Shown here one piece after another: positions 26,329 through 48,702 of a stretch of 64,000 nucleotides of DNA; the first letter of the stretch is position 1; the number at the start of each line of letters is the position of its first letter. The notes under the pieces are model-generated. The model saw only the letters and a program-made list of their open reading frames with translations. It had not been told where the DNA came from and ran no database searches. A program made the translations under genes and the position numbers. Source of the DNA: an uncultured Ectothiorhodospiraceae bacterium (GTDB lineage: Bacteria > Pseudomonadota > Gammaproteobacteria > Nevskiales > Oceanococcaceae); contig CAKZQS010000042.1 in the NCBI GenBank assembly GCA_937141935.1, forward strand, positions 62,001 to 126,000, given 5' to 3'.

Positions 26329-26490
26329 GGCGGCCGGGCCTGCGATCGGGTGGCGCCGCGGTTCTGCGCCATGGCCGGCGCCACACGCCGAGCCGCCCCT
26401 GCGCCACACCTTGCGCCGCTGCAGGGAGGGCGCGCTTCGGTACTCTAGCGCCGGGGGCGCGGCTTGCGCGTCGCGGATGGGGGCAGGGCC

Positions 26491-30367: not shown

Positions 30368-33300
30368 GTGAACGGAACGCGAACAGCGGTTGCTGCAGGG
30401 TGCAGCAAGTGGGGAGGGGTGGGGGCGCTTTGCGCCCTCGCTCTATTGGCCGCATGTTCCGGCGATCGCGAGCCCGACACGCCGCGTGGCACGACCCCGA
30501 CGCCCAGCGTCATTCCCACGGCCACCCCCGGCGCCAGCCCCGGTCCCAGCGCGAGCGCCAGCCCCATTCCCAGTCCCGGCCCCAGCATCGTGCCCAGCAC
30601 CTTGCCAAGCCCGGCGCCGACGCCCGGCCCGAGCGGCACGCCTCCGGCGCCTACGCCGACGGCAACCGCGAGCACGACGCCGACAGCGCCGCCGGTGAGC
30701 TCCGCCCCGCCCAGTGCCACGCCCACGGCGACGCCCACGCCCGCCAGCGGGCCGGCGCCGGACCCGCTGCGCACGATCCGCGGCCGCGTGCAAAAGGGGC
30801 CCTTCAGCACGCTGCAGGTGCGTGCGCAGATGCTCAACCCCCGTGGCCAGGTCACGCGCAGCATCCCGGCCAGCATCCAGGGCGACCGCTACACCGTAAG
30901 CGTGCCCAACGGCGCGCTGGTGCTGCTGGAGGCCTTTGGCCGCTTTGTCGACGAGCTCAGCGGCGAGCCCATCGATCTGCAGCTGCCGCTGGCCGCCTGG
31001 AACAACGGCACGGCCACGCAAAACATCAACGTGCTGACGCAGCTGATTGCCAGCACAGCGCAGGGTCTGGTGGCGCAGGGTCTGACGGCGGCGCAGGCCT
31101 ATGCCCAGGCCCGCGCGCAGGTGCTCGGGCAACTGGGCTATGCCAACCCGGACACGCTGGACCTGACGCAAATCAACGCCGGCGATGGGCTGGAGTCGCC
31201 GCAACTGCGGCTGGCCCTGCTGTCCGCCGCGGTGATGAGCCTGCCCCGCGGCGAGAACCGCATGCCCGCCAGCTGGACGGATCTGCAGCTGCGTCTGGCA
31301 CAGGGCGGCGAATCCGGCGAGGCCATCGTCGGGCTCTTCGAAGGCATTTCGGCCGCCGCGCTGGAGCAGCGCCTGCGCAATGCCGGCGTCAGCGAGTTGC
31401 CGCCGCTGCAGATCAACGACGAGGTCTGGCGCTGTGACGCGCAGTGCAGCTTCGCCGCCGCGCTGCCGGGCCTGCGCCTGGTCGATGCCGACGTGCACGA
31501 GGGCCGCGGCCGTATTCCCGTCACCGTGCGCCGCAGCGGCGACCTGAGCCAGGCCGTCGAGGTCCTGGTGTTGCTGGAGGACATCGAGACCACCTTCGGC
31601 GCTGATTACGCGACGCGCTCGGTCACGCTGCGCCTGCCGGCGCAGGTGCGCGAGGCCACCGCCTACGTCGACGCCGTGATCGACCAGCAGGTCGAGGGGC
31701 CAGAACGGTTGCGTGCCCGCATCGCCTCCAGCTCGGGCGGTGCCAGCGTCGTCCGCGGCGAGGCGATTCTGACCCTGCTCGATGGTGCGCCCACCGGCGC
31801 GGCCGGTGGCAGCAGCACGGCGCTGTCGATCGCCCGGGCCTGTCTGGTGGCCCTGGGCTCTGCGGCCGCGGCGGCCGATGCGAACTGCCTGGACCCGCTG
31901 CCGGCCGACCTGATCTACCTGGATGGGCAAGCGCAGTCCGCCCGCGTCGCGCTGGTCCTGCAAAGCACGTGCAAGAGCCGCCTGGGCTGCGCCGAGCGCC
32001 GCCGTGACTGGCAGATCCAGCTGACGCTGCAGCGCGGGGCCGGCGGTGCCGGCCGCCAGGTGACGCTGGGCGAGTTCCGTTACCCCGGCGGTGCGGTGCG
32101 CATCGACGGCCAGGCCCTCGGCGACGACAGCCCGCAAGTGGAGCTGGGCCTGGATGGGGCCGCCAGCCGGGCGCTGATCGACGCCGCCCGCGCGGCGGGT
32201 GAGGAGCTGCGCATTGTCGCCACGCTGCTCGCGCAGCCCCAGCGCAGCGTCGTGATCGCCTTGCCGGGTCTGCAGCCGCTGGCGCCGGAGCTGCGCTTTG
32301 GCGACCGCATCACCGACCTGGTGTCCCGCAACGGCGCGCTGGAAGCCGGCGGCGGCAGCTGCGGCCCCAACGAGTTCCGGTTGCGCGCCGCGATCTCCGC
32401 CATCGACCCCGCGCTGATCGGCCCGGATTCGCCGCTGAACAGTGTGCAGGGGCTGACGTTGGAGGAGCTGCCGGAGGCCCTGCGCCGCGAGGTCGACGTC
32501 TGCGTGACGCTGAGCGCGGATACGCCGCCACAGGCCACCGTCAGCGCCGGCAGTGTCGATGCCGGCTTCACCTTCTGGCGCCTGCCGCCCGGGCACGGCG
32601 TGCGCGCCGCCGAGGGCGGGGTGGGCTTCCCCTTGCTGCTGGTGCCGGGCGGGGCGGCGGCCGGCACGCTGGAGCTGTTCGCGGAAGGGCTGCCACTGGG
32701 CTTCGTGCTCGCCGGCGGCACGCTGGGCCCGCAGGGGCTCACGCTGCAATACACGCAGGCCCGGCACCTCAACGGCGCCTTTGTCAGCGATGCCGACCCG
32801 CGTCGGGGCCGTGCCGACAGCAACGACGTGCTCTTTGCCGCCGGCTCCAGCGCCGGGGGCACGCTGCGGCTGCGCGAAACCGGCCTGGACGGCAATGTGT
32901 CGGTAGCCGCGGGCTTTGGCCGCAGCGCCTACCCGCGCAGCGACGTGGTCTGGGGCCGCTTTGACCTGCCCTTGCAGAACAGCGCGCTGCCCGCCGCTAT
33001 CAGCCACGACGGCAGCGGCGTGCAGATCCGCCAGGCGCGCGCCTGCCGTGCCGGAATCTGCCCGGAGGGCGGGCGGGAGACCCACGTCGGCAGCGGCAGC
33101 CTGCTGCAGGACGCGGCCGGCCGCCTGCATGGCACGCTGGCCGCCGTCGGCGCGCAGCAGCCCGGTTTTGGCGCGCGCGGTGACGGCGGCCGCGCGGTCA
33201 CGCGGCCGGTGGACTTGCCCGACGGGGCGCCGCTGACCTTCGCGTTGGCCGGCTACCGCTTCGATGCCGCGCTGCCGGTGGCGGCGCAGTTGCCCGGGCA

Positions 33301-36300
33301 TGTGCAGCGGCAGGGCGCGAGCCTGCAGTTGCATGCGGCCGGCAGCGCCGCCTTCCGTGATGGCAACCATGCCCCCGCCGGCCTGAGCCTGGGGCCGGAG
33401 ATCTACCTCGGCGCCAACCGCCAGCCCGAGGTCGGCGCGGGCCAGGACCTCGCCGGCGCGGGGGTGCTGCAACTGGCCACGCTGTCGGCGCCGCTGGATG
33501 GGCTCACGGCGTCCAAGTACGTCATCCGCCCCTCGGGCCTGACGGGTGTGTTCAATGTGGACCCGCGCGGCCTGGACACGCCGCGCCTGGTCTACGACTA
33601 CCCGGTGCACTTCACCCGCTTCGCCTTCCGTTTTGTCGATAACGCCGTGGACCCGCTGACCTGGATCGATGGCCAGTTGCCGCTGCAGGGTGATTACGCC
33701 GATTTCAACGCCGGCGGCACGCCGCTGAGCTTCGCCGGCATGGCGATGGACTGCGCCAGCGAGTTCGGTACGGCGCGCGCCGTCTACGAGGCCTGCGATA
33801 CCCGCGACAACAACGGCGACGGCATCGTGGACGAGAACTGCCCGGCGCCGCTGGCCGCCTTCGCCATGAACAGCGAGCTGCAGGGGCTGCGCTTTGGCGG
33901 CGCCGATGGCGAGCCGCTGGCCGCCTGCAGCGTGGCCGAACGCGGCCTGCTGCTGAACCAGCTCATTGCCCCGCTGGCCATCGACAAGCCGCTGACCGCC
34001 GAGCTGGCCTGGACGCCGGCCGGCGAACTCGCAGGGCACCAGAAATTCCGCGGCCTGGATCGCTACCGCTTCGAGGCCGATGCCGATCAGCCCGGCTTCG
34101 GGCTGCAGCTGCAGAGCGTCAGCCTGCAGGTCGACGACATCACCCGGCCCGAGCCGCTGCGCTATGGCCGGCTCCGCGGGCGCGGGCAGGTGGGCTTGCC
34201 CTTCTGGCAGCCGCTGGAGGTGGACCTGCGGCTGGAGAACCGGCTGGCCTCCGCGCTGGACGGGTCGCTGGAGGCCGCGCCCTCGGTGCTGACCCCGCGC
34301 GGCGTGATCCTGCCCCGGGACCGGACATTGCCGGCCCCCGTCGACCTGCAGCAACTCAACGTGCTGCTGGAGGCCGAGCTGACGCAAAGCGCGCAGCAGG
34401 CCAGCGGGCTGAATGACTTCCGGGTCGATCCGGCACGCGGTCATGCCCCGAGCCTGGTGCATTTCGCGCGCTACGAATGGGGCAACACGGGCCTGGGCTT
34501 CCAGCTCCCGGTGTATTACCGCTCGGCGGTGCAGGGCGAACGGGCACTGCCGAGCTTCTTGGGCGTGCCGCGCGGCTTCGAGAGCCTAGTGCTGAACGTC
34601 TCGGCGGGCATCAATTTCATCGAGCCCGAACGCACCAAGTTCAGCTTTGGCGCCAGCGCCGACCTCACCGCGATCGACGGCCTGGAATTCCAGATCGACC
34701 TGCAAAGCGGCATGGGCCTGGAGAAGATCGACCAGCTGCTGATCAGCGCCCGGCTCATCGATGCGCCGGTGGTCGAGCCCACATTCGGCGGCGTGCGTGA
34801 CCGCCTGCGTGACTTCAACCAGTTCGCCAACCGCGGCGTCGACAGCCTGACCCAGCAGGCTCTGCTGCGCGGCATCGAGGTGCTGGGCGCCCGCGCCGCC
34901 GAAGTGAGCCCGGCCGGCGAGGACCCGGTTGTGACGCTGGCCGGCGCCATGGGCGCCATCCGCAGCCTGCCCGAGCAATTGGTGGGCGTGCTCGAGAGCG
35001 AGGTCGAAGCCCCGATCGATCGCACGCTCGACAGCGGCGCCGAGTCGTTGCGCGGCCAGCTGCGCAGCTTCAAGGCGGCGCTGGTCAATGCCGGCCAGCA
35101 GGGCGAAAACCGCGTGCCCGCCGCCGAGCTGCAGACGTCCATCGACGAGCTGGCCCGGGTCCTCGACGCGGTCGAACAACGCCGCGCCGGCGTGCGCCAG
35201 CGCCTGGACGGCGCGCAGGCCCTGCTGGGCCAGGTTGAGGGGCGTCGGCGGCAGGTGGCCGCCGCCGTGGCGCGCATTCGCGGCATCCTGGAGCAGACCG
35301 TGGGCGTCGTTGACGGGCTGTGCCGCAGCGGCGCCGCCACCGGCGTGGAGTTGACGGGCTATCTGGACGCGCTGTTCACCGCGCTGGAAGGCGCCCGGCT
35401 CACGCTGACCATCCTGGAGGGCAGCGAGTTGCTGCTGCCGGTGATCGAGCTGGCGGCGCAGAACCCCGAGCTGAGCCAGGCGATTCGCGATGGCCAGCAG
35501 GCCATCCAGCGCACCGCGGCGCTGGTGGAAGAAAAGCTCAGCGCCGCCGACGAGGCCTTGCGCGACCGCTTGTGCACCGCCGACGTGGGCAGCCTGCTGG
35601 CCACGGTGGAGCTGCGGCTGGCGCAGATCACGGCGCAGGTGGATGATGCCGGGCTGCTGGCCCAGCGCCTGGGCGATGTGCAGGCCGCGCTGACGACGGC
35701 GCAGGACATCGATGCGCAGATCCAGACCCAGCTGCTCGACCCCGCGCGGGGCGCCATCGCCGCGCTGGAGGCCAGCCTGGCGCAGGTCGCCAACGGCCAG
35801 GCCAGTGCGCAGCTCTATGCCGACATCGAGGCGGAGCTGGTGCAGGCCATCAACGACGCGCTCAGCGACCGCACGCCGCTGCCGAACCTGCCGCCGTTGC
35901 CCACCCTCCAGCAGCTCGTGGACGAGGCCGGCACGCAGGCCAGCACCGACCTGGCGGACCTGCTGTTCCAGCCGCTGCAGGGGTTGGTCGAGGCGCGCAT
36001 CGCCAACGTGCAGGCGGCCGCGGAAACGATGCTTGGCAATGCCTTGCCCGGCGCGTTGTACGAGCCCGAGGAGCTGCGCCTGTTCCTGGTGACGCAGATC
36101 ATGGCGGCGCCGCCCTTCGCCCAGCTGCGTACCGAGGTCAACGACCAGCTCGCCGAGCTGCGCTACCGCCTGAACGAGCTGGTGAATCAGGTCACCGACC
36201 ACGCCAACACCGCCATTCGCGGCGCGCTGGCCCAGGTCAACGACAGGATTGGCGGCGCGTTGGAGAAGGCCCAGGCCGAGGTCAAGGCCATCCCGCTCGC

Positions 36301-37267
36301 GGCCGGCGGCATTGATGGTTACGCCACGATCGCCGGCACCGAACTCGAACGCCTGCACATCGGCGCCGAATGGGCGATGCGGCCGGCGACGGACGGCCAG
36401 CCCGGCAACACCTTCGGCGCGGCGCTGGATGCGGTGTCCTGGAGCGCCAACGACAAGACCTCCGGCTGCAATGTCGACCCCAACGACAGCCCGCTGGACG
36501 TGACGATTTCGGCCTTCAACCTGCCGGCCGCCTTCGGCACCAGCCAGATCACGATGAAGAAGGTGTATCTGGGCTTCACGCTGGACCAGAACAGCTTCCA
36601 GGGCGAGGGCGGGCTGCGGCCGCTGGGCGTGTTTGGCGGCCTGTCGACCCAGGGTGAGATCGCCTTTACCGAATTCAAGATTTACGACCCGGCCTTTGCC
36701 GCCGGCCTGGGCAAGTACGAGGTCTACGTCGGCGCGGCGGCCGGCGCGGTGTTCAGCACCGTGTCGGCCGAGGTGGCCTTCCTGGCCGGCAAGACCTGCA
36801 ACCAGGAGGTGCTGCTCGAACTCGACCCGGCGGTGGCGCAGTTCATCGAGCTGCCGCCCAGTGGCTTTGCCGGCGCCTATGTGCGCGGCGCGGCCGGGAT
36901 TCCGGTGTGGACCATGGGTTGCCCGCTGACCATCGGGGTGGCCGCCGATTTCGGCGCCTGGGTGCTGGCCGGCCCGCCGGTCACGCTCGGCGGCCTGGTC
37001 GGCGGCGGGGCCTTTGGCAAGGTCGGCTGCGTGGGCGCCCTGCGCGGGCAGATCCGCGCGCTGGGCCAGGTCAACACCGACGGCGACATGGTCTTCGTCG
37101 GCGAGGGCTTCGGCGTGGCCGGCGTGGGCCTGTGCGAGCCGGCAGGTTGGACCTCGGTGCCGCGTTCGCGCGCCGACGGTTTGTGCGTGACGGCGGATGC
37201 GCTGTTCCAGGCGGGCTATGTCGGTAGCTGGCAGATCCTGGACCTGGGCATCAGCGCACCGCATTGA
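30368..37267 (+). CDS. Giant lipoprotein, 2299 aa, unknown function
   Basis: The frame is open from TTG 30338, but GTG 30368 gives a proper lipoprotein signal (MNGTRTAVAAGCSKWGGVGA, lipobox LLAAC). A Pro/Thr/Ser-rich linker of about 100 residues (repeated PSP, PTP) follows, then a domain with IRGRVQKGPFST, INVLTQLIASTAQGL and a Calx-beta-like stretch (VDADVHEGRGRIPVTVRRSG). Long beta-rich regions fill 500-1500, with a Ca-binding-type loop at about 1143-1158 (DNNGDGIVDENC). Residues about 1540-1975 are alpha-helical and coiled-coil-like (RRAGVRQRLDGAQALLGQVE). The C-terminal 300 residues are beta-rich and glycine-rich. I recognise no enzyme. It is the first gene of a four-gene operon of exported proteins. 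Confidence 0.75.
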   Translation: MNGTRTAVAAGCSKWGGVGALCALALLAACSGDREPDTPRGTTPTPSVIPTATPGASPGPSASASPIPSPGPSIVPSTLPSPAPTPGPSGTPPAPTPTATASTTPTAPPVSSAPPSATPTATPTPASGPAPDPLRTIRGRVQKGPFSTLQVRAQMLNPRGQVTRSIPASIQGDRYTVSVPNGALVLLEAFGRFVDELSGEPIDLQLPLAAWNNGTATQNINVLTQLIASTAQGLVAQGLTAAQAYAQARAQVLGQLGYANPDTLDLTQINAGDGLESPQLRLALLSAAVMSLPRGENRMPASWTDLQLRLAQGGESGEAIVGLFEGISAAALEQRLRNAGVSELPPLQINDEVWRCDAQCSFAAALPGLRLVDADVHEGRGRIPVTVRRSGDLSQAVEVLVLLEDIETTFGADYATRSVTLRLPAQVREATAYVDAVIDQQVEGPERLRARIASSSGGASVVRGEAILTLLDGAPTGAAGGSSTALSIARACLVALGSAAAAADANCLDPLPADLIYLDGQAQSARVALVLQSTCKSRLGCAERRRDWQIQLTLQRGAGGAGRQVTLGEFRYPGGAVRIDGQALGDDSPQVELGLDGAASRALIDAARAAGEELRIVATLLAQPQRSVVIALPGLQPLAPELRFGDRITDLVSRNGALEAGGGSCGPNEFRLRAAISAIDPALIGPDSPLNSVQGLTLEELPEALRREVDVCVTLSADTPPQATVSAGSVDAGFTFWRLPPGHGVRAAEGGVGFPLLLVPGGAAAGTLELFAEGLPLGFVLAGGTLGPQGLTLQYTQARHLNGAFVSDADPRRGRADSNDVLFAAGSSAGGTLRLRETGLDGNVSVAAGFGRSAYPRSDVVWGRFDLPLQNSALPAAISHDGSGVQIRQARACRAGICPEGGRETHVGSGSLLQDAAGRLHGTLAAVGAQQPGFGARGDGGRAVTRPVDLPDGAPLTFALAGYRFDAALPVAAQLPGHVQRQGASLQLHAAGSAAFRDGNHAPAGLSLGPEIYLGANRQPEVGAGQDLAGAGVLQLATLSAPLDGLTASKYVIRPSGLTGVFNVDPRGLDTPRLVYDYPVHFTRFAFRFVDNAVDPLTWIDGQLPLQGDYADFNAGGTPLSFAGMAMDCASEFGTARAVYEACDTRDNNGDGIVDENCPAPLAAFAMNSELQGLRFGGADGEPLAACSVAERGLLLNQLIAPLAIDKPLTAELAWTPAGELAGHQKFRGLDRYRFEADADQPGFGLQLQSVSLQVDDITRPEPLRYGRLRGRGQVGLPFWQPLEVDLRLENRLASALDGSLEAAPSVLTPRGVILPRDRTLPAPVDLQQLNVLLEAELTQSAQQASGLNDFRVDPARGHAPSLVHFARYEWGNTGLGFQLPVYYRSAVQGERALPSFLGVPRGFESLVLNVSAGINFIEPERTKFSFGASADLTAIDGLEFQIDLQSGMGLEKIDQLLISARLIDAPVVEPTFGGVRDRLRDFNQFANRGVDSLTQQALLRGIEVLGARAAEVSPAGEDPVVTLAGAMGAIRSLPEQLVGVLESEVEAPIDRTLDSGAESLRGQLRSFKAALVNAGQQGENRVPAAELQTSIDELARVLDAVEQRRAGVRQRLDGAQALLGQVEGRRRQVAAAVARIRGILEQTVGVVDGLCRSGAATGVELTGYLDALFTALEGARLTLTILEGSELLLPVIELAAQNPELSQAIRDGQQAIQRTAALVEEKLSAADEALRDRLCTADVGSLLATVELRLAQITAQVDDAGLLAQRLGDVQAALTTAQDIDAQIQTQLLDPARGAIAALEASLAQVANGQASAQLYADIEAELVQAINDALSDRTPLPNLPPLPTLQQLVDEAGTQASTDLADLLFQPLQGLVEARIANVQAAAETMLGNALPGALYEPEELRLFLVTQIMAAPPFAQLRTEVNDQLAELRYRLNELVNQVTDHANTAIRGALAQVNDRIGGALEKAQAEVKAIPLAAGGIDGYATIAGTELERLHIGAEWAMRPATDGQPGNTFGAALDAVSWSANDKTSGCNVDPNDSPLDVTISAFNLPAAFGTSQITMKKVYLGFTLDQNSFQGEGGLRPLGVFGGLSTQGEIAFTEFKIYDPAFAAGLGKYEVYVGAAAGAVFSTVSAEVAFLAGKTCNQEVLLELDPAVAQFIELPPSGFAGAYVRGAAGIPVWTMGCPLTIGVAADFGAWVLAGPPVTLGGLVGGGAFGKVGCVGALRGQIRALGQVNTDGDMVFVGEGFGVAGVGLCEPAGWTSVPRSRADGLCVTADALFQAGYVGSWQILDLGISAPH

Positions 37268-37274
37268 GGACGCC

Positions 37275-40200
37275 ATGACACGTTTGCTCCCCGCACTGCT
37301 CCTGCTGCTCAGCCTGCCGGCCGTGGCACTGGACGCGCTGTATTTCGCCGCCAAGCCCGGCCCGGCCGGCTCGCTGACCCGGGCGGGGCAGGGCGAGACG
37401 GTGGTGTACCTGCGCTGGGACACGCTGGAATCCGAGCTGCCGCCCGACATCCTGCGCTTCGAGCTGGAGCGCGATGGCCTGCCGCTGCGCGATGGCGGTT
37501 TCCCGGCGCGCGACGTGATGTCCGCCGCGCAGATCCAGGCGCTGTATGTGGGGCCGGCGCAGCAGCGGCGCATGCTGGAGACCGTGGCCGCGCTGAAGCG
37601 CCAGGCCCTGGCCGACCCGGACTTTGGCGACTTCGCGCTGAACGACTTTGGCCGCAAGGTCCGCCAGCGCCTGCTGGACGACGACGACGCGCTGTGGCGC
37701 TACTTTGCCGCGCGCGCCGACTTCAACATCGCCCGCGCCCGCTACCGCGCCTTTCTGGATGCCCCGGGCGCGGGCGTGTTCGACTACGAGCTGCTGGCCG
37801 TCAGCGCCAGCGGCGAGCGCGCCCGGGTGGGCTTCGCGCAGGTCGACACCACGCGGCCCGTCGCGCCGCTGCCGCCGCGGGAGTTCCGCCAGGTGTTCCA
37901 GGGGGCCTGCGACTCGCCCGACGCCGGCAAGGACGACTACACCGTGGCGCTGAGCTGGCTGCCGCCGGCCGGGCAGGGCCTTGCCGATGCGCTGGCCTCG
38001 CAGCTCTTCGTCGCCGGCTATGACCTCTACCGCACACGCGACAACCTGGACCCCGCGACCCCACGCCCGGCCCCGCGCAACCTGGCCGCCGAGGCGCGCG
38101 GCCTGCAGCATGACGCGCAGGGCCGCGTGGCCTACCCCGGGCTGGAGAAGGTCAACGAGGTGCTGCTGACGGTGGATGGCGGCACCAGCGGCAACGGCGA
38201 AGAGCCGGTGTTCCTGGAAACCCATAACGAACTCGCCGCCGCGGGCCTGCTGCCGGGGGATGTGCGCGCCTATTACCTGGTGCCGCGCGACTTTGCGGGC
38301 CACTACGGGCAGACGCTGGCGGCCATCGTGCGGGTGCCCGACCGCAGCCGGCCGCCGCCGCCCTGGGACGTGCGCGTCTACAACGACTTGGCCGTGGATC
38401 CGCCGCTGACCGAGCTGATCTGGGAGGCCGTGGAGCGCGAGCATTACCTGGAGGCCTTTGGCAGCGGCATTCGCATCTGCAACGCCGGCGAGCGCAGCGC
38501 CGAGCGCTACCTGTCGGTGGTGGGCCAGGACGAGCAATGCGCGCAGGCCGTGCAGCGGCGCATCCGCATGCCGGCCGCCGACTATCTGCTCTACCGCTTC
38601 GACAACGCCAACGACGCCAATGCCTTCAAGGACTCCGACGGCGACGGCGTGCGCGACCGGGACGAGCGCCCCTTCAACATGCAGTGCGACCCCAGCGTCG
38701 CGCCGGCCAATGCGCCCAATTACCGGGTGCCGCTGGGCGGGCCGGTGCGGCTTGGCGAGCGCGTGTTGCGGCCGGATCACGGCCGCGTCGTGACCTTCCG
38801 CGACCTGGTGCCCGGTGGCGACCAGGGCACGGTCTATTGGTACCGCGTGGTCAGCCGCGCCGCCGACCAACGTCTCAGCGTTCCCTCGGCGCCGGTGCGC
38901 GTGGTCTTCCCCGAGCGCGAGCTGCCGCCGCCGCCGCAGACCAGCGCCGAGGTCGTGATCGATGGCAGCTGCACGGCCTGCCGCGCGGTGACCCGCAACC
39001 CCGACGGGCGTTGGGATCTGGTGGATGAGACCGGCCGCGCCGACAACCTCGCGGTGTCCTGCCCCTCCGGCGCGACGCTAGCGCTGCCCTTCGCAGCCTT
39101 GGAGTCGCGCGACGGCCTAGTGTGCCAGCAGCTGCGCGAGAACTGCGGCGCCGGGGAACTGCGCCTGGGCATCCTGGATGCCTCGGTGCGCCCGGCCGCG
39201 CTGCTCTGCGAGACCGTCGTGCCCGCCGACATCGGCTTTTGCGACACGGGCACGCTGGCGCTGGAGCCGGCCCAGTGCCAGACGCGGCCGATTGCCGCGG
39301 GGGAGCGCAGCGACGGCGATATTCTGGTCACGCTGGACAGCGAAGACCCGGCGCGCTGCGTCACCCTGACCCGCGCCGACGCCACCACCGGCAGCGAGCA
39401 GGTGGTGGAAAGCACCTGCGGCGGCGAGCTGAACGTGGATCGGCTGACCGTCACGCTGGCCGAGGCGGAGCAACCGGCCTGCTTGCGTGGCTACAGCCAG
39501 GACAGCGACGGCAATGTCTCGCCGGCGGCGGTGATCGGCTGCCTGGGCACGCCGCGGGGCGAGTCGGATTCGCGGCCGGCGGCGCCGCAGGCCGTGGCGC
39601 TGGAGATCGACACCAAGCGCGCCACGCTGCAGTGGCGCCTGCCGGTGGAGCCGGTGGCCGTGACGCTGATTGAGCTGCGTCGGCAAGCCGATGGCAAGAC
39701 GCGCCTGGCCTCCGTGCCGCGCACGCAGCCCGCGGCGCAGGCCGCCGTGGAAACCCATGCGCTGAATGTCAGCGACGTGATGCTGGCCGCCCCGGGTGAG
39801 CTGTGGTGCGCGCGCTTCCGCACGTTGCCGCCGGGCGACGACGCGCCGCAGTCCGACTGGAGCCCGCCGCTGTGCGCCAACCGCGCGGCCGAGCTGCCGC
39901 CGCCCGATTACCTGCCCTGGCCGGAGCTGGCCACGGCGCCGCAGCTCGCGGACGTCAGCTTCCAGCTCGGCAGCGACTTTGTCGGTCGCGCCAGCCCCAA
40001 CAGCGGCCTGCCGATGTGGCCGATCACGCAGTTTGTGCTGCCGGCCAAGGATGTCTGCGGCCCCTTGAACCCGCAGGCCGTCAGCGCCGACACGCCCGGG
40101 CTGTACCTCAAGCCCTTCTGCACGCCCACCGCGCCCAAGCTGATGGGTTTGGCATTGGGCGCGAGCGGCGATTTCGCCGTGTTCCGCCGCAGCCGGGACC

Positions 40201-40514
40201 CGGCCGGCGTGGAGAGCGATTACATCCAGGTCAGCCCGCTGCTGCGCGGGCCCTACTGGGCGCCGCGCGAGGCCTTCGACCAGCCCGACGGCGGCGGCGA
40301 CCCGGTGGCCTCGCCCTACACGCGGGCGCTGGATGACCCCTGGCTGCAGCTGTACCAGGCCGGCGGTGCCGATGACTTTGGCATCGCCTTCGTCGACCGC
40401 TACCCGGTCCTGCAGGGCCATGAGTACCGTTACCAGATCGTGCATTTCTCGCGCGACAACCGCATCACCGGCTGGCGCCACAGCAACTGGCTGCGCGTAG
40501 GGGGTGGCTCATGA
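37275..40514 (+). CDS. Large exported protein with fibronectin-III-like segments, 1079 aa
   Basis: The ATG at 37275 follows GAGGA and starts a signal peptide (LLPALLLLLSLPAVA). The protein contains several fibronectin-III-like stretches (YTVALSWLPPAG, PPWDVRVYNDLAVDPPLTEL, KRATLQWRLPVEPVAV). It also has a calcium-loop motif (DSDGDGVRDRDERPF) and many cysteines in the second half (CTACRAVT, CQQLRENCG), suggesting disulfides and an extracytoplasmic location. It begins 7 bases after the giant lipoprotein and its stop overlaps the next gene (ATGA, 40511-40514). No enzymatic motif was recognised. It is probably a structural or binding component of a surface complex. Confidence 0.75.
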   Translation: MTRLLPALLLLLSLPAVALDALYFAAKPGPAGSLTRAGQGETVVYLRWDTLESELPPDILRFELERDGLPLRDGGFPARDVMSAAQIQALYVGPAQQRRMLETVAALKRQALADPDFGDFALNDFGRKVRQRLLDDDDALWRYFAARADFNIARARYRAFLDAPGAGVFDYELLAVSASGERARVGFAQVDTTRPVAPLPPREFRQVFQGACDSPDAGKDDYTVALSWLPPAGQGLADALASQLFVAGYDLYRTRDNLDPATPRPAPRNLAAEARGLQHDAQGRVAYPGLEKVNEVLLTVDGGTSGNGEEPVFLETHNELAAAGLLPGDVRAYYLVPRDFAGHYGQTLAAIVRVPDRSRPPPPWDVRVYNDLAVDPPLTELIWEAVEREHYLEAFGSGIRICNAGERSAERYLSVVGQDEQCAQAVQRRIRMPAADYLLYRFDNANDANAFKDSDGDGVRDRDERPFNMQCDPSVAPANAPNYRVPLGGPVRLGERVLRPDHGRVVTFRDLVPGGDQGTVYWYRVVSRAADQRLSVPSAPVRVVFPERELPPPPQTSAEVVIDGSCTACRAVTRNPDGRWDLVDETGRADNLAVSCPSGATLALPFAALESRDGLVCQQLRENCGAGELRLGILDASVRPAALLCETVVPADIGFCDTGTLALEPAQCQTRPIAAGERSDGDILVTLDSEDPARCVTLTRADATTGSEQVVESTCGGELNVDRLTVTLAEAEQPACLRGYSQDSDGNVSPAAVIGCLGTPRGESDSRPAAPQAVALEIDTKRATLQWRLPVEPVAVTLIELRRQADGKTRLASVPRTQPAAQAAVETHALNVSDVMLAAPGELWCARFRTLPPGDDAPQSDWSPPLCANRAAELPPPDYLPWPELATAPQLADVSFQLGSDFVGRASPNSGLPMWPITQFVLPAKDVCGPLNPQAVSADTPGLYLKPFCTPTAPKLMGLALGASGDFAVFRRSRDPAGVESDYIQVSPLLRGPYWAPREAFDQPDGGGDPVASPYTRALDDPWLQLYQAGGADDFGIAFVDRYPVLQGHEYRYQIVHFSRDNRITGWRHSNWLRVGGGS

Positions 40515-43500
40515 AGCGGCGTCTGACCAGAGGCCTTGGGCTGTTGCTGGCGCTGGCCGGCGGCGCCGCGGCCGGGCAGGACAGCGGTGTGTTCGATGGC
40601 CGCAACCCCGACGCCTGGATCATCCACCCGCTGACCGGCGAAACCACCGAGGTCGACCGCGGCGGCTGGATCGACGGCTTTGGGCAGGGTCTGGGCGACG
40701 TGCCGCGCGAGGCGCCGCGCGAGGCCTTGGTGAACACGCTGCCGCGCAGCTCCGTGCCGATGACCGCCGGGCAGCCCACGATCTCGCTGGCCGGCCTGGG
40801 TGTGGCGGGGGCGAACCCGGCCCCGGTGGACGCGCGGCTGTTCCCGCCGCCGGGCGCCTATATGCGCACCATCGAGGTGCTGATCGGTGTGCGCGAAGAC
40901 CTGCTGCAGGCCGCGGGCGCCCGCCTGCAATGGCAGGTGGACGGCCAGCCGCCGCAAACGCTGAACCTGCCCGCGCGCACAAGCGGCCCAGGCTGCGCGG
41001 AGCTGCCGCGGGCCCGCGGTGGCCGCTTCGAGCCCGCCTGCGCCGCCCGCGAGGGCTATATCGGCGCAAGGCTGCACCTGGTACGCGACGGCGTGTACAC
41101 GATCACGGCCACGATCACCCGTCCGGGCGGCGGGGCGCTGGCCAGCCTCACGGGCGAATACACCATCGCCGCCAGTGGGCCAGCCGAGCGCGACAGCGAC
41201 GGCGATGGCATCCCCGACGCCATTGAGGCCGCCATTGGCCTGGACCCGCTGCGTGATGACCTGGGCCTGGACAGCGACAACGACGGCTGGAGCGATCTGG
41301 ACGAATGGCTGCGCTGCCCCACGCCGCTCAGCGCCGAAGGGCGCTGCGCCGCCAGCGAGGACCCGGATGCCGAGCCGCTGGACACGGACCAGGACGGCTG
41401 GTCGGATGTCGATGAGGCGCTGCGCGGGACCCGCCCGGACGACCCCGACCCGGTGCTGCAACCGCGGCCGGGCGAGAGCGCCGACGACGACAATCTGGCC
41501 GCGCGCCGGCTGCGCTACAAGGAGCGCCCGGCGGCCGATCGGCTCTACGAGGTGGAGCACCTCGTCGATGCGGCCCTGCAGGCCCGCCAGGGCTTCACCG
41601 GCACCTGGGAGACCGCGCGCGCCTTCGCGCTGGATGGGCGCGAGGTCTGGTCGGTGGACAGCCGCCTGACCGATGATGCTCTGGCCGACGCCGGCCTGAC
41701 GCCTGCCGACACGCCCGACTCGCTGCGGCGCAGCCTGGCCGAGGCGGCCCTGGGCAATGGGCGCCTGCCGCTGATGCGGCTGCCGGCCAGCCGTGGCAAT
41801 GCGCTGGCCGCCATCTACAAGCTGCCGCCGGCCAGTTTCCCGGCGCCGCTGGATGCCCCGGTGCCGCGGCTGCTGCACAAGCGCATTCTCGCCGAGCGTG
41901 CCGACGCCGGGCCGCAGCGCTTCGTGCGCGCCGTCGCGCCCACGATGGACCCGCTGGCCTGGCGGCAGGCCGTGCTCGACTGGCTGGAGACCCACCTGGT
42001 CGCACGCGTGACTGATCCGCTGACCTGGCCGGAGACGCGCGTCGCCGCCGCCTTCGAGCGGGTGCTCGCGCTGGAGGCGCAGGCCGTCGACGCGGCGTCG
42101 CCCGTGCTCTACCGCCGCCAGGAGCCGGGCCTCGTCCTGCCCTTCCTGGGCCGGATGCAGGCGGACGTGTTGCGGCTGCAGGACCCGGCCGGCGTGCTGG
42201 AGTTGCCGCAGTCCGGCCTGGCCGGCCTGCTGCTGCCACGGCTGCGGACTGCGCTGGCCAGCAATGGCGTGCTGGCGACTATTGCCGACTTCATCGACGC
42301 GCGCACGGCCGCCACGCCCGCGGGCCGGCGCAGCGACCAATGGCTGGCGCAGGGCTTTGAGCGCACCGTCGATCCGGCGGAGCAGGGCTGCTTCGTGCTG
42401 TCCGCCTTCGAGGCCGAGGTCACGCAGCAGCCGGATTTCGCGAGCCGCTGCCCGTCCTATTACACCGAGCAGGACGTGCTCGCCTGGCAGGCCGAGGACG
42501 CCCAGCGACGCTACCTGCTGCGGCTGCTGACCGTGCTGCGGCCCGAGGATATCGCCGCGGCGCCGCCCAGCCTGCTGCAACGCGCGACCGATACCGATGG
42601 CGACCGCCTGAACAACGGCAGCGAGATCAACCTACTGCCGCTCGCGCAGCTGACCCGGCCCGACCGTGCCGACAGCGACTGGGATGCCGCGGATGACCTG
42701 GCCGACCGCTGCCCGCTCGACCCGCTGGATGCCTGCCTGGGCTTTGCCCGCGCGCCGCAACTGGTCATCGGCCCGCAGGTCACGATTGTCGAGGGCGAAT
42801 CGGACACGCTGGCATTGATCAGTTTGCAGCTCGATCGATTGGCGCCGCGTGATGTCACCTTGACGGTGACCGTTGCTGCGGAAGAGGGCGATTCGGCAAC
42901 ACCCGGTGTGGACTTCGCGGCCTCCGAGTTTCGCGTGACCATTCCCGAGGGGGAGCAGTTTGCTGTCGTCGCGGTTCCGGTCTTCCCCGACCAGGATGAC
43001 GAGGATGACGAGCGCTTCACGGTGACGCTCAGCGACATCGCGAATGCGAGCGCGCCGGTCACGACGCAGCGCGTGACGATTGGTGACGCGCCGCCGACCG
43101 CTGAGGCGCCAACGGCGGTCGCCAGTGCACCGGCGGCAGCGGATGAAAGAGCCAGCTTCGCACTTGACGGTCGCTCCAGCGCGGACCCGCAGGGCGGCGG
43201 ACTGACCTACCAGTGGTCCCAGCTCTCCGGGCCTCCCGGCACACTGCAGGATGCGGATCAGCCCCAGGCCCTGTTTAGGGCGCCCGAGGTGTTGTCCGCC
43301 ATGGAGGTCCGTTTCCGCCTGCAGGTGACGGCTGACGATGGGCAAAGCAGCATCGCGACGGCGACGACGACTTTGCAACCGGTGGAAGATCCGCCCGAAG
43401 TGCAGTCGACGCTGGAACTGGCTGTGACGCAGGGCCAAAGCGTGAGCGCCACGACGAGCGAGATACTCGCCAAGCTGCGCGAGCCCGATGGTCAACCGAT

Positions 43501-44917
43501 GACGGTGGATGACCTCGTCGATCCGCCCCTAAGCGGCGGCCAAACCACACTGGATGCCAGCGGGCTCACATTCGCGGCCTTCGCCGGAGAGACGCCGATT
43601 TCTTCGCTGGCATCGCGTTTCTTGCGCCCCGCCGGGCCGGATGCCGTGGTGTTCATCGAAGCACCGCAGGGCCAGCCGCAGAAGGTGCTGCGGCACGACG
43701 CGGCGAGCAATACGACCGCGACCGTCTTTGATGAGGCCGCCAGCGGGACCCAGGTGCAGGTGTTGCTCGGAAGCGAGACCGCGGACGTGGCCTACATCCT
43801 CGGCCAGGATCAAACGCTGCGCGTGGTGCTGCCGGGGGGGACGACGCAGGTCCGCAGCGCGGCGGACCCCGCGCAGATTCTGGCCGTCGAGGGCCGGCTG
43901 GGCACGGCGGCCATCGAGCCGCAGACCGGCGATCTGTATTACTGCGCGGGCGAGTTTTCGATGGGTGAGTGGCATGTCGTCGATGCCGAGGACGCACTCG
44001 ATAGCGCAACCGGCATCGAATGCGAGCCCACCTTTACATCTCGCTCCGTCAGTCGCGACGGTCGTGTCTGTCTGACCGATCAGCAGAACCGGCTGTTTTG
44101 TTCCAACGGCGCTGGCGGTATCGAGGAGTCCGCCGTGTTTACGAGTCAGGTGCAGCAGATGCTTGCGCGCGGCGACGAGTTACTGCTCTTCGTCAGCGAT
44201 TTCTTTGGCGGACTGCGCGTGTACGCGGTGGCCAGCGATGACAGCGTGGTGGAGTACCCGGCCTTCGAGTCCACGACGATGGAGACGTCCAGCACCGTGA
44301 CCGCGGACGGCTCGCTGGTCTTCGTGCGCCTGTCCGGCATCGGCAGTGGCAACGAGACGCTGCAGCTGATGGACTGGGATGGCGTGGCCGCGGGCCCGCC
44401 GGCCGTGCTGTCGCAGGATGTGCCGGCCGACGGGGCCCGCTTCGAGATTTCGCGCGGCGGCGGCCTGCTGGCCGAGGGCAACACCGTGTACTGGTATGCC
44501 TCCGGCAGCAGCGGCGCCTACGTGTTGCGTCAGGTCGATGCTGCGGCCGCCAAGCCGGTCGCCGCGCAGGTCATCACGCCGGTCACGACCGACAGCAACA
44601 ACACGCCCAACACGCTGCACTCTCAGCGCGGCCGCCTGCTGCTGGCCCGCAGCGGCAGCGAGGAGGGCAGCTGCGACTGGCTGCTCGTCGATGTGGCCGG
44701 CAGCAGCGTCAGCCCGCTGCTGCAGGACATCAACTGCTTCCGCCGGCTGCTGCGCGCCGACACGCTGATCACGACGCGCTTCGACGGCAGCCAGACCACG
44801 GTCCGCCGCTTTGACGGTGCGCCCTTCACCGGACTGCTGCGCTTTGGCCTGGATGTCTCGGACACGCAGGGCAACAGCGTGGAGCTGCCGGTGGAAATCA
44901 CGGTGACGAGCCCATGA
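40511..44917 (+). CDS. Large exported protein with thrombospondin-3-like, Calx-beta and PKD-like domains, 1468 aa
   Basis: A signal peptide (GLGLLLALAGGAAAG) precedes an N-terminal domain. Tandem calcium-binding thrombospondin-type-3 repeats follow at about 237-320 (DSDGDGIPDAIE, DSDNDGWSDLDE, DTDQDGWSDVDE). A Calx-beta domain lies at about 755-855 (VTIVEGESDTLAL, GVDFAASEF, DDEDDERFTVTLSD), then a PKD/REJ-like domain at about 860-955 (SFALDGRSSADPQGGGLTYQ). A C-terminal region from about 1010 to 1440 alternates short beta strands, possibly a propeller. ATGA overlaps on both sides (40511 and 44914) tie it to its neighbours. All recognisable modules are extracellular and calcium-dependent, which fits an adhesion or matrix role. 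Confidence 0.8.
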   Translation: MKRRLTRGLGLLLALAGGAAAGQDSGVFDGRNPDAWIIHPLTGETTEVDRGGWIDGFGQGLGDVPREAPREALVNTLPRSSVPMTAGQPTISLAGLGVAGANPAPVDARLFPPPGAYMRTIEVLIGVREDLLQAAGARLQWQVDGQPPQTLNLPARTSGPGCAELPRARGGRFEPACAAREGYIGARLHLVRDGVYTITATITRPGGGALASLTGEYTIAASGPAERDSDGDGIPDAIEAAIGLDPLRDDLGLDSDNDGWSDLDEWLRCPTPLSAEGRCAASEDPDAEPLDTDQDGWSDVDEALRGTRPDDPDPVLQPRPGESADDDNLAARRLRYKERPAADRLYEVEHLVDAALQARQGFTGTWETARAFALDGREVWSVDSRLTDDALADAGLTPADTPDSLRRSLAEAALGNGRLPLMRLPASRGNALAAIYKLPPASFPAPLDAPVPRLLHKRILAERADAGPQRFVRAVAPTMDPLAWRQAVLDWLETHLVARVTDPLTWPETRVAAAFERVLALEAQAVDAASPVLYRRQEPGLVLPFLGRMQADVLRLQDPAGVLELPQSGLAGLLLPRLRTALASNGVLATIADFIDARTAATPAGRRSDQWLAQGFERTVDPAEQGCFVLSAFEAEVTQQPDFASRCPSYYTEQDVLAWQAEDAQRRYLLRLLTVLRPEDIAAAPPSLLQRATDTDGDRLNNGSEINLLPLAQLTRPDRADSDWDAADDLADRCPLDPLDACLGFARAPQLVIGPQVTIVEGESDTLALISLQLDRLAPRDVTLTVTVAAEEGDSATPGVDFAASEFRVTIPEGEQFAVVAVPVFPDQDDEDDERFTVTLSDIANASAPVTTQRVTIGDAPPTAEAPTAVASAPAAADERASFALDGRSSADPQGGGLTYQWSQLSGPPGTLQDADQPQALFRAPEVLSAMEVRFRLQVTADDGQSSIATATTTLQPVEDPPEVQSTLELAVTQGQSVSATTSEILAKLREPDGQPMTVDDLVDPPLSGGQTTLDASGLTFAAFAGETPISSLASRFLRPAGPDAVVFIEAPQGQPQKVLRHDAASNTTATVFDEAASGTQVQVLLGSETADVAYILGQDQTLRVVLPGGTTQVRSAADPAQILAVEGRLGTAAIEPQTGDLYYCAGEFSMGEWHVVDAEDALDSATGIECEPTFTSRSVSRDGRVCLTDQQNRLFCSNGAGGIEESAVFTSQVQQMLARGDELLLFVSDFFGGLRVYAVASDDSVVEYPAFESTTMETSSTVTADGSLVFVRLSGIGSGNETLQLMDWDGVAAGPPAVLSQDVPADGARFEISRGGGLLAEGNTVYWYASGSSGAYVLRQVDAAAAKPVAAQVITPVTTDSNNTPNTLHSQRGRLLLARSGSEEGSCDWLLVDVAGSSVSPLLQDINCFRRLLRADTLITTRFDGSQTTVRRFDGAPFTGLLRFGLDVSDTQGNSVELPVEITVTSP

Positions 44918-47900
44918 CGATGCCACGCGCCGCGCGCGCCGCACTGCCGACCCTGCTGTTCACGCTGCTCGCGGCTTGCGGCGGCGGAGGCAGTGGGGGC
45001 GGCGGGCAGGGCGATCCGAACGGCCTACCCGGGCCCGAGCCCATCGCCACTCCGGCGGGCGAGCCCGGCTTCGGCATCTTCAAGGTGGCCCTGCGCGAAC
45101 CCCCGGACCGGGATGCCGACGGGATTCCCGATGTCGAGGACCCCTTCCCGGATGCCGCGCCGCAACGGCAAACCGGCGCGCCGGATTTCGTGCTGGAGGC
45201 GGCCGAGGCGGTCGATGGGGAGCAGCGCTGGCCGGATTTGCGCCATGCCGAGCTGGACATGCGCTTTCGCGTACGCGACCTCGACGCCAGCAGCGGCCCC
45301 TGGTATGCCGTGTTCGAGGGCCCCGATGTGATCGAGGCCTTGCCGCTGCAGCGCGCCCAGGACGAGCTCGGCCTGCCGGCCGCAAGCTTCGACAGCCTGC
45401 TCAATCGCGTGTACGTCATGACGCCGCAGTGGCGGACCAACGCCCTGACCATCCAGGCGCTGCGCGCCGGCGCGCCGATCTACCGCCCGCAGAGCCGCGC
45501 GGCGCAGGGCGAGAGCCTGACGCTGCTGGGCCGCAACCTGGATGGCGCGGTGGCCGAGCTGGGGCCGCGGCTGCTCGACAGCACACCCGCGGCCAATGGC
45601 CGGCAACTCAGCGTCACGCTTGCCGCGGACAGCGCCGATGGTCTGCTGCGGGTGGAGAACGCGGTCGACAGCTACGCCGCGCCCCTGCAGGTCTTGTCCA
45701 CGGTGCGCATGAGCCGGGCCAATGAGCCCTATGTCGCCGGCCCGCTGGTTTGGGCCTCGCCGCTGGGGCTGAGCGAGTGGCCCAGCGCGCAGGCCGAGCT
45801 GTCGATCCTGAGCGCCAGCCGCTTCCCGCGGCTGGAGACCTTTGCCCACGCCAACAAGCTGGGCGAAACGGTGCTGCGCCGGGTGGTGATCTGGCCGGAC
45901 GAAACCGACAAGGTGCTGGGCCAGGCCAGCATTCTCGAAGGCGTGGTCTACGCGCAGTACGAGCGGCTGTTCGGCAAGCGCCCGGCGCCGGATGCCTGGG
46001 CGGAGGCGCGCGCGGCGATCAGCGCGCTGCTGCTGGAGCCGGAGGCCGCGGACGCCCGCGCCCACCTCGCCGCGGGCATGGCCAGCCCGGAGGATTACTC
46101 GGTGGCCACGCTGCTGAACCTGCTCAAGCCGGCCGCCGTCCGGCTGGCCACCACCCGCAAGCGCTTTACGACACGGGGGCGCGAGATCTACGACATCAAC
46201 GTCACCGCCGAGGCCAACGGGCAGATCTACGCGCAGCGGGATTTTCAGAATTACTCGCTGGATGTGGTGGAGTCGGCGACCTGCAATATCGCCATTGACC
46301 TGCTCGGCCGGCCCGCCGAGGTCACGGCCTCGGACCTATGCCTGGAGAACGATTCCAAGACCTTCGCCAGCGCCGCCGTGGATATCGCTGTGCGCGACCT
46401 GGACACGGGCGACTTGAGTTACCGGCGCGTGCGCAGCCATTTGCCGGCTGGCAGTCGCAATCTGGCTTTTCACAAGGATGTGGTGGGCGGCAACTTTGGC
46501 GGCGTGCTGCAGTTCGCCTCGGTGGCCTACCTGACCGATGACGACGGCGCTCCCGTGTGCCAGGGCGGGCCCTGCCGCGTGGAGCTGCTGACCGGCGGCT
46601 GGGGCCTGGGCCTGCCCAAGCTGCCTGCGGGCACGCCTGAAGCCGAAATCGCCGAGGCGATGTTCCAGCGCACGCTGATCGAGAGCACCTTGTTCCCCGT
46701 GGGCGAGTTGCTGACGGCCGGCTTCCTGAGCGCGCTGGACGTGGGCTGCGTCAAAAAGCGGCTGGCCCTCGAGCTCTTCGGCCAGGTGGGCAGCCAAGTG
46801 GGCAATGTCATCACGCTGAACGACTTCATCAACAAGCTCGGCGGCGACACCAGCCCCGGGAACATCGTTGCGGTGCTGTCGGATACCTATTTCAAGGCGC
46901 TGGCCGACCTGCTGGTGGACGCCGCATCGCCCGAGCGCTTCCTGGCCTGTGCCGCGGATTTCGCCAGCGCCGACGCGATGCAGAAAAAGGCGGCGGAGCA
47001 GGGCGCGCAGGCGCTGGCGCGGGGCCTGTTCGCGCTGCAGATCGTGCAGCTGATCGTCGACCAGGCCGAGATCCTGTTCACGCCGCGCAAGTTCACGCTG
47101 CACGCGCAGCCGCTGGCCGAGGTGCAGCGGGCCGACCCCGCCACGATGGATCTGACGCTGCCCTCCAGTAATAACAATCTGAATGCGCTGACGGTGGAAG
47201 GGCAGTACATCGCCGCCGACACGCCCGCGAACGAGACCTTCTACCCCAACCTTGTGATCACCGACCGGGAGGGCAACCGCTCACGCTTTTTCGCCTTCGC
47301 CGAAAACTTCACGGCGGGCGCGGAGCAGTCCAGCGACAACCCCGCCAAGACCAAGGACGGCAAGATCATCGCGCCGCTGGCCGAATTCACGCCGGCGCTG
47401 GAGACGCTGCAGCCGGGGCCGGTCACGCTGTCGCTGGAAATCGATGGCTACGACGAGTTTGCGAATTCCGTGCTGCCGCTGCCCGGCGGGGCGTTGAAGC
47501 TGCAGCGCTTTCCCTTCGCCGAGCGGGTGGACGTCGGTGCGGTGTTCGCGCAGGAGAAGAATGCGGTGCTCGGCTATCGCCTGGAAAAGGTGCAGGACCA
47601 GACGGGGCGGACGGCGCAGCAGTCGCTGGCCCTGGGCGTGAGCCTGCAAAAGGGGCAGGAGGCGCCAATTGCCGCGGAGGGCGTGGACTTCGAGTTTGGC
47701 GCCGGGGCGGATGTGATCGAGGAGTTCGCGGCGGCGGTGAATTTTGCGGCGCCCGCGGATACCCCGCCGGGCGACTACACGGTGCGTTATCTCGTTGGGG
47801 CGCCCAACGAGCAGACGGGACTCGAAGTGCCGGGAACGCTGCGGGTCCTGTCCGACAACGGCGTCAAGGTGGTGTTGCAGGACAGCGGTGCCAAGGCGGA

Positions 47901-48201
47901 CGACGTGATGGATATGGCGCTGCGCGACGCCCAGGGTGAGGTGCTTGCGGTCCAGGGCCAGCCGGTGGTGGCGGCCGTGCCGGTCGAGGGCGTGTTCGCC
48001 ACGGCGATCTGGTACGAGCCGGAAGCCATAACGCCGGCGGACATCCTGATTCGTTGCTTCAACGGTGGCGCGGATGCGACCTGCACATTCGCCCTGGAAG
48101 TCAGCTCGCGCGACAGCGGGCTGACGTTTTCGCACCGCGGCAAGCTGCCGCCGACGGGTCTGGCCTGCTTCGCCCTGCCGAGCTTCGCGCCCTGTAACTA
48201 G
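44914..48201 (+). CDS. Large lipoprotein with calcium-loop and IPT-like segments, 1095 aa
   Basis: The ATG lies in the ATGA overlap with the preceding gene. The signal ends in a lipobox (LLFTLLAAC) followed by a Gly/Ser linker. A calcium loop (DRDADGIPDVEDPFPD) comes next, then an IPT/TIG-like stretch (GESLTLLGRNLDGAVAELG) near residue 205. Later sections are mixed alpha/beta without a family I recognise; CNIAIDLLG, CVKKRLALELFG and CAADFASADAM hold conserved-looking cysteines. It closes the four-gene operon. Having lipoproteins as the first and last genes suggests both are anchored to the outer membrane with the two signal-peptide proteins between them. Confidence 0.75.
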   Translation: MTMPRAARAALPTLLFTLLAACGGGGSGGGGQGDPNGLPGPEPIATPAGEPGFGIFKVALREPPDRDADGIPDVEDPFPDAAPQRQTGAPDFVLEAAEAVDGEQRWPDLRHAELDMRFRVRDLDASSGPWYAVFEGPDVIEALPLQRAQDELGLPAASFDSLLNRVYVMTPQWRTNALTIQALRAGAPIYRPQSRAAQGESLTLLGRNLDGAVAELGPRLLDSTPAANGRQLSVTLAADSADGLLRVENAVDSYAAPLQVLSTVRMSRANEPYVAGPLVWASPLGLSEWPSAQAELSILSASRFPRLETFAHANKLGETVLRRVVIWPDETDKVLGQASILEGVVYAQYERLFGKRPAPDAWAEARAAISALLLEPEAADARAHLAAGMASPEDYSVATLLNLLKPAAVRLATTRKRFTTRGREIYDINVTAEANGQIYAQRDFQNYSLDVVESATCNIAIDLLGRPAEVTASDLCLENDSKTFASAAVDIAVRDLDTGDLSYRRVRSHLPAGSRNLAFHKDVVGGNFGGVLQFASVAYLTDDDGAPVCQGGPCRVELLTGGWGLGLPKLPAGTPEAEIAEAMFQRTLIESTLFPVGELLTAGFLSALDVGCVKKRLALELFGQVGSQVGNVITLNDFINKLGGDTSPGNIVAVLSDTYFKALADLLVDAASPERFLACAADFASADAMQKKAAEQGAQALARGLFALQIVQLIVDQAEILFTPRKFTLHAQPLAEVQRADPATMDLTLPSSNNNLNALTVEGQYIAADTPANETFYPNLVITDREGNRSRFFAFAENFTAGAEQSSDNPAKTKDGKIIAPLAEFTPALETLQPGPVTLSLEIDGYDEFANSVLPLPGGALKLQRFPFAERVDVGAVFAQEKNAVLGYRLEKVQDQTGRTAQQSLALGVSLQKGQEAPIAAEGVDFEFGAGADVIEEFAAAVNFAAPADTPPGDYTVRYLVGAPNEQTGLEVPGTLRVLSDNGVKVVLQDSGAKADDVMDMALRDAQGEVLAVQGQPVVAAVPVEGVFATAIWYEPEAITPADILIRCFNGGADATCTFALEVSSRDSGLTFSHRGKLPPTGLACFALPSFAPCN

Positions 48202-48504: not shown

Positions 48505-48702
48505 AAAAACTCCTGGACTGTCGAGGGGCTCAGGCTGCCAAAGTCAGGCTGGGGCCGGCCACGGGGCATGACCGAGGCAATGCGCGGCGGCCATGGCACC
48601 GTCCCCGCCGGCGGTCATACCCGACTGCAGGGCCGGCGCGGCAGCCGGGCCGGAGTGCTATCGTGGCCCTGCGGCGCGTCAGCGCTGGCTGGAGCTGGAG
48701 AC

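Follow-up and report, generated by a model that had tools for sequence, protein, structure and literature searches.

Among the known systems closest to the locus reported here are the outer-membrane tethers SlpA and OmpM of Deinococcus and Veillonella, respectively (PMC9388160, PMC10628300). Tethers of this kind have an N-terminal SLH domain, a coiled-coil stalk and an outer-membrane barrel at the C terminus. Gene 1 of the four-gene operon described below resembles them in that a long predicted helical part precedes a C-terminal domain modelled with some likeness to outer-membrane barrels, and the metal sites of SlpA may be compared with the calcium-type loops found here. It differs from them in its N-terminal lipobox, its large beta-rich body, its place in a four-gene operon and its C-terminal domain, which is about one third the size. 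In addition, no SLH domain was matched by Pfam in gene 1 or in its orthologue in the Oceanococcus genome G002.

Type V autotransporters are characterised by a 12-stranded C-terminal barrel that is preceded by a helix, and by an aromatic C-terminal residue that serves as an assembly signal. With the lipidated members of this group, i.e. the NalP type (PMC7857515), gene 1 has in common that the protein starts with a lipoprotein signal and ends in a conserved beta domain. It differs by having no autotransporter family match, by conserved cysteines in the C-terminal domain and by the roughly 515 predicted helical residues that separate the two ends.

CglD and MtsD are myxobacterial surface proteins of the TSP3 kind. 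The exported gene 3 product carries TSP3-type calcium loops and gives partial NCBIfam matches to both, but the repeat region alone is matched and the scores stay far below the cut-offs (MtsD, 25.6 against 800 bits; CglD, 22.9 against 400 bits). Finally, the module types of genes 1 and 3 also occur in modular surface proteins of bacteria that carry Calx-beta, PKD and cadherin-like domains, whereas here most of the nearly 6000 residues fall outside the described families and the genes form a fixed set of four. As far as the searched libraries reach, the module is undescribed, and it is partly built of known modules.

Our main reading, to which we assign a probability of about 0.5, is that one operon encodes the parts of a large, calcium-stabilised outer-membrane assembly with a structural or attachment role rather than a catalytic one. 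The locus is of interest since nearly 6000 exported residues are co-inherited across distant lineages and almost none of them belong to described families. If there is indeed an outer-membrane complex, it would represent a new architecture among gammaproteobacterial envelope assemblies, and several uncharacterised domains would gain a shared context in which their function can be tested.

The gene set and its reading frames

The operon lies within the window, i.e. the whole stretch of 64,000 nucleotides that was analysed. It consists of the following genes:

30368..37267, plus strand: gene 1, lipoprotein of 2299 residues with a GTG start (open frame, lipobox with Cys30 followed by Ser)
37275..40514, plus strand: gene 2, Sec-exported protein of 1079 residues (orthologues in five genomes of this order, plus G277)
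40511..44917, plus strand: gene 3, Sec-exported protein of 1468 residues (Pfam matches, calcium-type loop pattern)
44914..48201, plus strand: gene 4, lipoprotein of 1095 residues, the least conserved of the four (lipobox; relatives in G002, G016, G277 and, as a partial copy at a contig end, G003)

All four frames are open at these coordinates, and in this respect the first-pass annotation, which had described four same-strand genes in the order lipoprotein, signal peptide, signal peptide, lipoprotein, was accurate. The same is true of the joints: seven bases separate the stop of gene 1 (37267) from the start of gene 2 (37275), and ATGA overlaps connect genes 2/3 and 3/4. The total, given earlier as nearly 6000 residues, is 5941 by count. 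All products are acidic (pI 4.4-4.8).

As read from the sequence, the lipobox is LLAAC followed by SGD in gene 1 and LLAAC followed by GGG in gene 4, whereas genes 2 and 3 have ordinary signal peptides. A lipobox is also present in gene 1 of G002, G003 and G040. According to the Lol rule, Asp at position +2 of a lipoprotein leads to retention in the inner membrane and other residues lead to the outer membrane. Since the +2 residue is Ser in gene 1 and Gly in gene 4, the rule predicts an outer-membrane destination for both.

Identity to the orthologues runs along the frames, at 31-45% for genes 1 and 2 and 25-39% for genes 3 and 4, and the dN/dS value of gene 1 is about 0.12 in a comparison of two close relatives. 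On these grounds of sequence conservation we regard the four frames as real genes. The long antisense ORFs, found in this GC-rich sequence, are supported neither by a family match nor by a conserved frame in this analysis.

Conservation and co-inheritance

The search covered 85 genomes of the order; the class and the phylum were sampled rather than exhausted. The profile of the gene 1 C-terminus and that of gene 2 identified the same five of the 85 genomes, and genes 1 and 2 were never found apart in this set. Four of the five carriers have gene 4 (the copy in G003 is cut by a contig end), and the fifth, G040, lacks it; the remaining matches to gene 4 are short N-terminal fragments.

The first-pass annotation had proposed the conservation of the neighbourhood as a check, and this was carried out. 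The genus Oceanococcus belongs to the Oceanococcaceae within the Nevskiales (PMC9872600), and G002, which is in the same family as the window but in another genus, has genes 1-4 in identical order. Its products are 2298, 1075, 1444 and 1121 residues long, with ATGA at joints 2/3 and 3/4. The second Oceanococcus genome, G003, has genes 1 and 2 up to a contig end and a partial gene 4 on a separate short contig. In G016 gene 1 lies at the edge of a contig; one contig has genes 2 and 3 and another has genes 3 and 4. The gene order in G003 and G016 is thus consistent with that of the window as far as the contigs reach. G277 belongs to another order and is 58% complete; as identified with the gene 2 profile, it contains the end of gene 2 followed by genes 3 and 4, with ATGA overlaps. 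We also looked for single genes or other gene orders among the relatives, which would have spoken against a common unit, and found none, apart from the lack of gene 4 in G040.

In G040, which represents another family, genes 1-3 are situated between pilB-pilC-pilD and coaE. This direct succession to pilus genes raises the question of whether the operon is an accessory set of the type IV pilus. We consider this highly improbable: the arrangement is seen at one locus only, no pilus genes adjoin the operon in the window or in Oceanococcus, and Pfam and NCBIfam give no match to pilins, PilY1 or pilus families for any of the four proteins.

The conserved order, the strict co-occurrence of genes 1 and 2, and the fact that the ATGA joints are kept in a distant order argue that the four genes are one real conserved module. 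Judged by the same comparisons the module is rare, patchy and co-inherited, with five carriers in 85 genomes of the order and only G277 beyond it in the samples. In the phylum sample the gene 2 profile found no carrier besides G277, and in the class and phylum samples the profile of the gene 1 C-terminus matched only the query's own genome. No relative was detected among the plasmids and viral contigs searched, and the PHROGs phage models gave nothing meaningful. The congener G001 is without genes 1 and 2 and has gene 4 as a short N-terminal fragment only. An empty site was sought in this genome; the side with ATP sulfurylase and ileS is syntenic, but synteny is lacking on the opposite side, which leaves no clean empty site.

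Modules of the four proteins

The whole gene 1 product is about 42% identical between the window and G002. The following features precede its helical region:

30458..30769, plus strand: gene 1 residues 31-134, linker rich in Pro, Ser and Thr (composition kept in orthologues)
31487..31783, plus strand: gene 1 residues 374-472, Calx-beta (Pfam, 26.4 bits against a cut-off of 27; 33 bits in the G002 orthologue)
33785..33841, plus strand: gene 1 residues 1140-1158, calcium-type loop CDTRDNNGDGIVDENC (shared by the five orthologues; MopE matched weakly)

The N-terminal part of gene 1 was considered as a candidate polymorphic exposed ectodomain that undergoes allele exchange, and this was dropped after a control. 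Between G002 and G003 the first ~945 codons are sharply divergent (64-86% identity, as against mostly 92-99% in the flanks). In the control, which consisted of six other syntenic pieces of the two genomes, 64 of 311 windows were also below 86% identity. In other words, divergent blocks are common between G002 and G003, and the block in gene 1 is not specific evidence of exposure. We note that the two Oceanococcus genomes, compared over six 12-20 kb pieces (L052-L063), are mosaic, with a median identity of 96% and multi-kilobase blocks of 65-85%, which suggests frequent recombination between them.

The features identified in genes 3 and 4 are as follows:

41192..41419, plus strand: gene 3 residues 228-303, stretch with three calcium loops of TSP3-like type (pattern search; kept in G016 and G040)
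42800..43564, plus strand: gene 3 residues 764-1018, Calx-beta followed by a PKD/cadherin-like region (Pfam)
46216..46713, plus strand: gene 4 residues ~435-600, conserved central region (alignment of four orthologues)

The Pfam matches of gene 3 are PF22352 (PKD) with 40.7 bits against a cut-off of 27, Calx-beta with 24.9 bits and Cadherin_4 with 21.8 bits; the modules above their curated cut-offs are this PKD domain and the Calx-beta of G002 gene 1 (33 against 27). TSP3 stays below the threshold in Pfam, while clear loops of the DxDxDGxxD type occur in genes 2, 3 and 4. Gene 2 has one conserved loop (residues 453-465, shared by the five orthologues within the order) and gene 4 has one near its start. 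Taken together, the pattern search finds calcium-type loops in all four proteins, and these are conserved in the orthologues. Of the modules named in the first-pass annotation, Calx-beta, PKD and the TSP3-like loops were thus recovered; the fibronectin-like modules were unconfirmed, as gene 2 of the window has no Pfam match. The gene 2 orthologues have only weak Pfam matches (TSP3, RGI_lyase and Ig), and the best match of gene 2 to a solved structure (E 0.08) was dismissed as chance level.

It was also claimed earlier that no enzyme, transporter or secretion component is recognisable, and this agrees with the library searches: genes 1-4 match no enzyme, transporter or secretion family in Pfam or NCBIfam and no PADLOC family. 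The centre of gene 4 contains an invariant His509, Cys549 and Cys554 and a TGG-like motif. Invariant His and Cys residues would fit an operon whose secreted products hydrolyse or bind an extracellular polymer as one machine, gene 2 or gene 4 providing a catalytic domain of undescribed fold. One orthologue of gene 2, which weakly matches the beta-sheet domain of RGI lyase, points in the same direction, as does the gene for a trypsin-like S1 protease that is found in G277 3' of gene 4 on the same strand (L051:1-1125). The protease is absent downstream at the other loci, however, and in view of the missing enzyme families we regard a polymer-directed machine as improbable.

The helical region of gene 1

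34709..36262, plus strand: gene 1 residues 1448-1965, predicted to be helical (from the secondary structure of the AlphaFold model, where pLDDT is mostly 50-78)

A long helical rod had been noted in the first-pass annotation, and a helical region of about 515 residues is indeed predicted in gene 1. Its length is 511-540 residues in four orthologues. As regards a coiled-coil stalk like that of the SlpA/OmpM tethers, a periodicity of 3.4-3.6 is seen in 6-13 of 23-24 sequence windows. The arms are mostly 12-26% identical, the centre (~residues 1675-1724) about 40%, and it is at this centre that the predicted helices break. The near-constant length, the conserved centre and the break suggest that the region probably folds into a long hairpin whose tip is conserved.

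The AlphaFold model of residues 1100-2299 has a mean pLDDT of 42 and was kept for secondary structure only; a fold search with it gave chance matches to coiled coils and transporters (rmsd mostly 20-70 A), which were discarded.

The C-terminal domain of gene 1

36290..37264, plus strand: gene 1 residues 1975-2299, C-terminal beta domain of 325 residues (model m6f2589e351a6; no Pfam family)

It is conspicuous that this domain is the most conserved part of gene 1: the window and G002 share 72% identity in it, and pairwise identity per 25-residue window is 49-79%, whereas elsewhere in the second half of the protein it is 12-55%. The domain is hydrophobic, low in charge and rich in Gly, and it contains six invariant cysteines. 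Model m6f2589e351a6 consists of a helix (2-22) that leads into 15 long antiparallel strands in a meander. Its mean pLDDT is 57, with values of 58-86 at model residues 31-190 and below 50 in the last third.

With this model (mean pLDDT 57) the best Foldseek match was FhaC at E 0.007. The matches found by VIA-align are nearly all outer-membrane barrels, with a best Z of 11.6 and rmsd values of 6-13 A. The nearest solved folds include FhaC, CdiB, MOMP, SlpA and other outer-membrane barrels, and ApoB is also among the matches. SlpA of Deinococcus is among those of lowest rmsd: for chains 7zgx_A and 8ae1_A, 268 residues were aligned at 6.1-6.6 A with Z values of 11.3 and 9.8, again for a model with a mean pLDDT of 57. 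Given this mean and the values below 50 in the last third, the apparent resemblance to outer-membrane barrels is a lead only. No sequence relative of the domain was found among solved structures. A match to FAD_binding_4 (E 0.04-0.06) was rejected, as it is below the cut-off and at odds with the all-beta prediction.

These features invite comparison with a lipidated autotransporter, in which a C-terminal barrel would carry its own N-terminal part, and possibly help the gene 2-4 products, to the surface. In gene 1 a conserved all-beta domain of ~320 residues follows a less conserved N-terminal part, the model has the helix leading into long antiparallel strands with barrels as nearest folds, the protein ends where the last predicted strand ends, with alternating hydrophobic residues, and NalP is a lipidated precedent (PMC7857515). 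Nevertheless, no autotransporter or outer-membrane barrel family was matched in Pfam up to E 10 in the five orthologues, the final residue is His in three of four distinct sequences (window, G002 and G040; F in G016) rather than the usual aromatic one, and six invariant cysteines, an rmsd of 6-13 A and a model that is weak in its C-terminal third also speak against it. We therefore hold an autotransporter-like gene 1 to be doubtful.

The hydrophobic, low-charge, Gly-rich character of the domain and the ApoB fold match would also fit a periplasmic or outer-membrane apparatus that moves lipids or hydrophobic compounds by means of a beta-strand groove and amphipathic helical arms. The helical part matches apolipoproteins A-IV and E by profile (best E 5e-5), but such matches are typical of the composition of amphipathic helices and were rejected as homology. 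The operon has no transporter partner or ATPase, and calcium modules would be unexpected, so that a lipid-moving apparatus appears distinctly improbable.

Proposed assembly

Returning to the calcium-stabilised outer-membrane assembly, gene 1 would be the scaffold. Its N terminus would be lipid-anchored and followed by the flexible Pro/Ser/Thr linker, a beta-rich body of ~1300 residues with the Calx-beta domain and the calcium loop, the long helical hairpin with the conserved tip, and the C-terminal beta domain, which may dock in or on the outer membrane. The gene 2 and gene 3 products would be exported subunits with calcium-type loops that assemble on this scaffold, and gene 4 would be a second lipoprotein anchor, dispensable in one lineage (G040). 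The role may be in attachment or in envelope architecture.

In this scheme we infer complex formation, outer-membrane docking, surface display, calcium binding and an adhesive role. For the gene 2 and gene 3 products a periplasmic location would be equally possible as the surface, since they carry Sec signals only. A membrane barrel would not usually contain six invariant cysteines, and the absence of gene 4 in G040 also counts against the outer-membrane assembly, while the regions of genes 2 and 4 that match no described fold could be catalytic, which counts against a structural role. A bolder version, that gene 1 combines a C-terminal barrel with a helical hairpin of ~500 residues, either spanning the envelope or projecting from the cell, and that it organises or exports the gene 2-4 partners, i.e. 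an undescribed outer-membrane machine, is tentative and in our opinion unlikely.

Genomic neighbourhood and regulation

Two regulatory genes precede the operon in the window:

26464..29631 (start uncertain), plus strand: 7TMR-DISM hybrid histidine kinase (Pfam; not conserved beside the operon)
29636..30286, plus strand: LuxR-type response regulator (Pfam; 81 bases before gene 1)

The first-pass annotation suggested that this pair possibly controls the operon. The pair does adjoin it in the window, yet the adjacency is not conserved, which weakens the suggestion. The good matches of the kinase in relatives are the generic catalytic and receiver domains of other kinases. In Oceanococcus (G002 and G003) an ECF sigma factor (PF07638) stands ~80 bases upstream of gene 1 in line with it, and beyond it lies a divergent Ser/Thr kinase with TPR repeats (in G003, L018:11033-11581 and L018:8313-10967; the same in G002), while no regulator adjoins the operon of G040 (L016, L017). 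Since the neighbouring regulator varies by lineage, the regulatory link is at most strain-specific. In Xanthomonas a pair of an ECF factor and a Ser/Thr kinase controls resistance to protist predation (PMC13147305), and this likeness gives only a hint. At the ends of the operon no sigma-70-like promoter was found and terminator patterns did not exceed chance, which is uninformative at this GC content.

Downstream of the operon, on the same strand, an ORF (48301-49863) contains LLLGC, which resembles a lipobox, and the motif GVSMGG, which resembles that of alpha/beta-hydrolases. It has no Pfam match, and in the relatives inspected it was not found next to the operon. Directly upstream of the kinase (19645-26328) there are Cus-type metal efflux genes, namely those of an outer-membrane factor, a CusB/CusF fusion and an RND pump.
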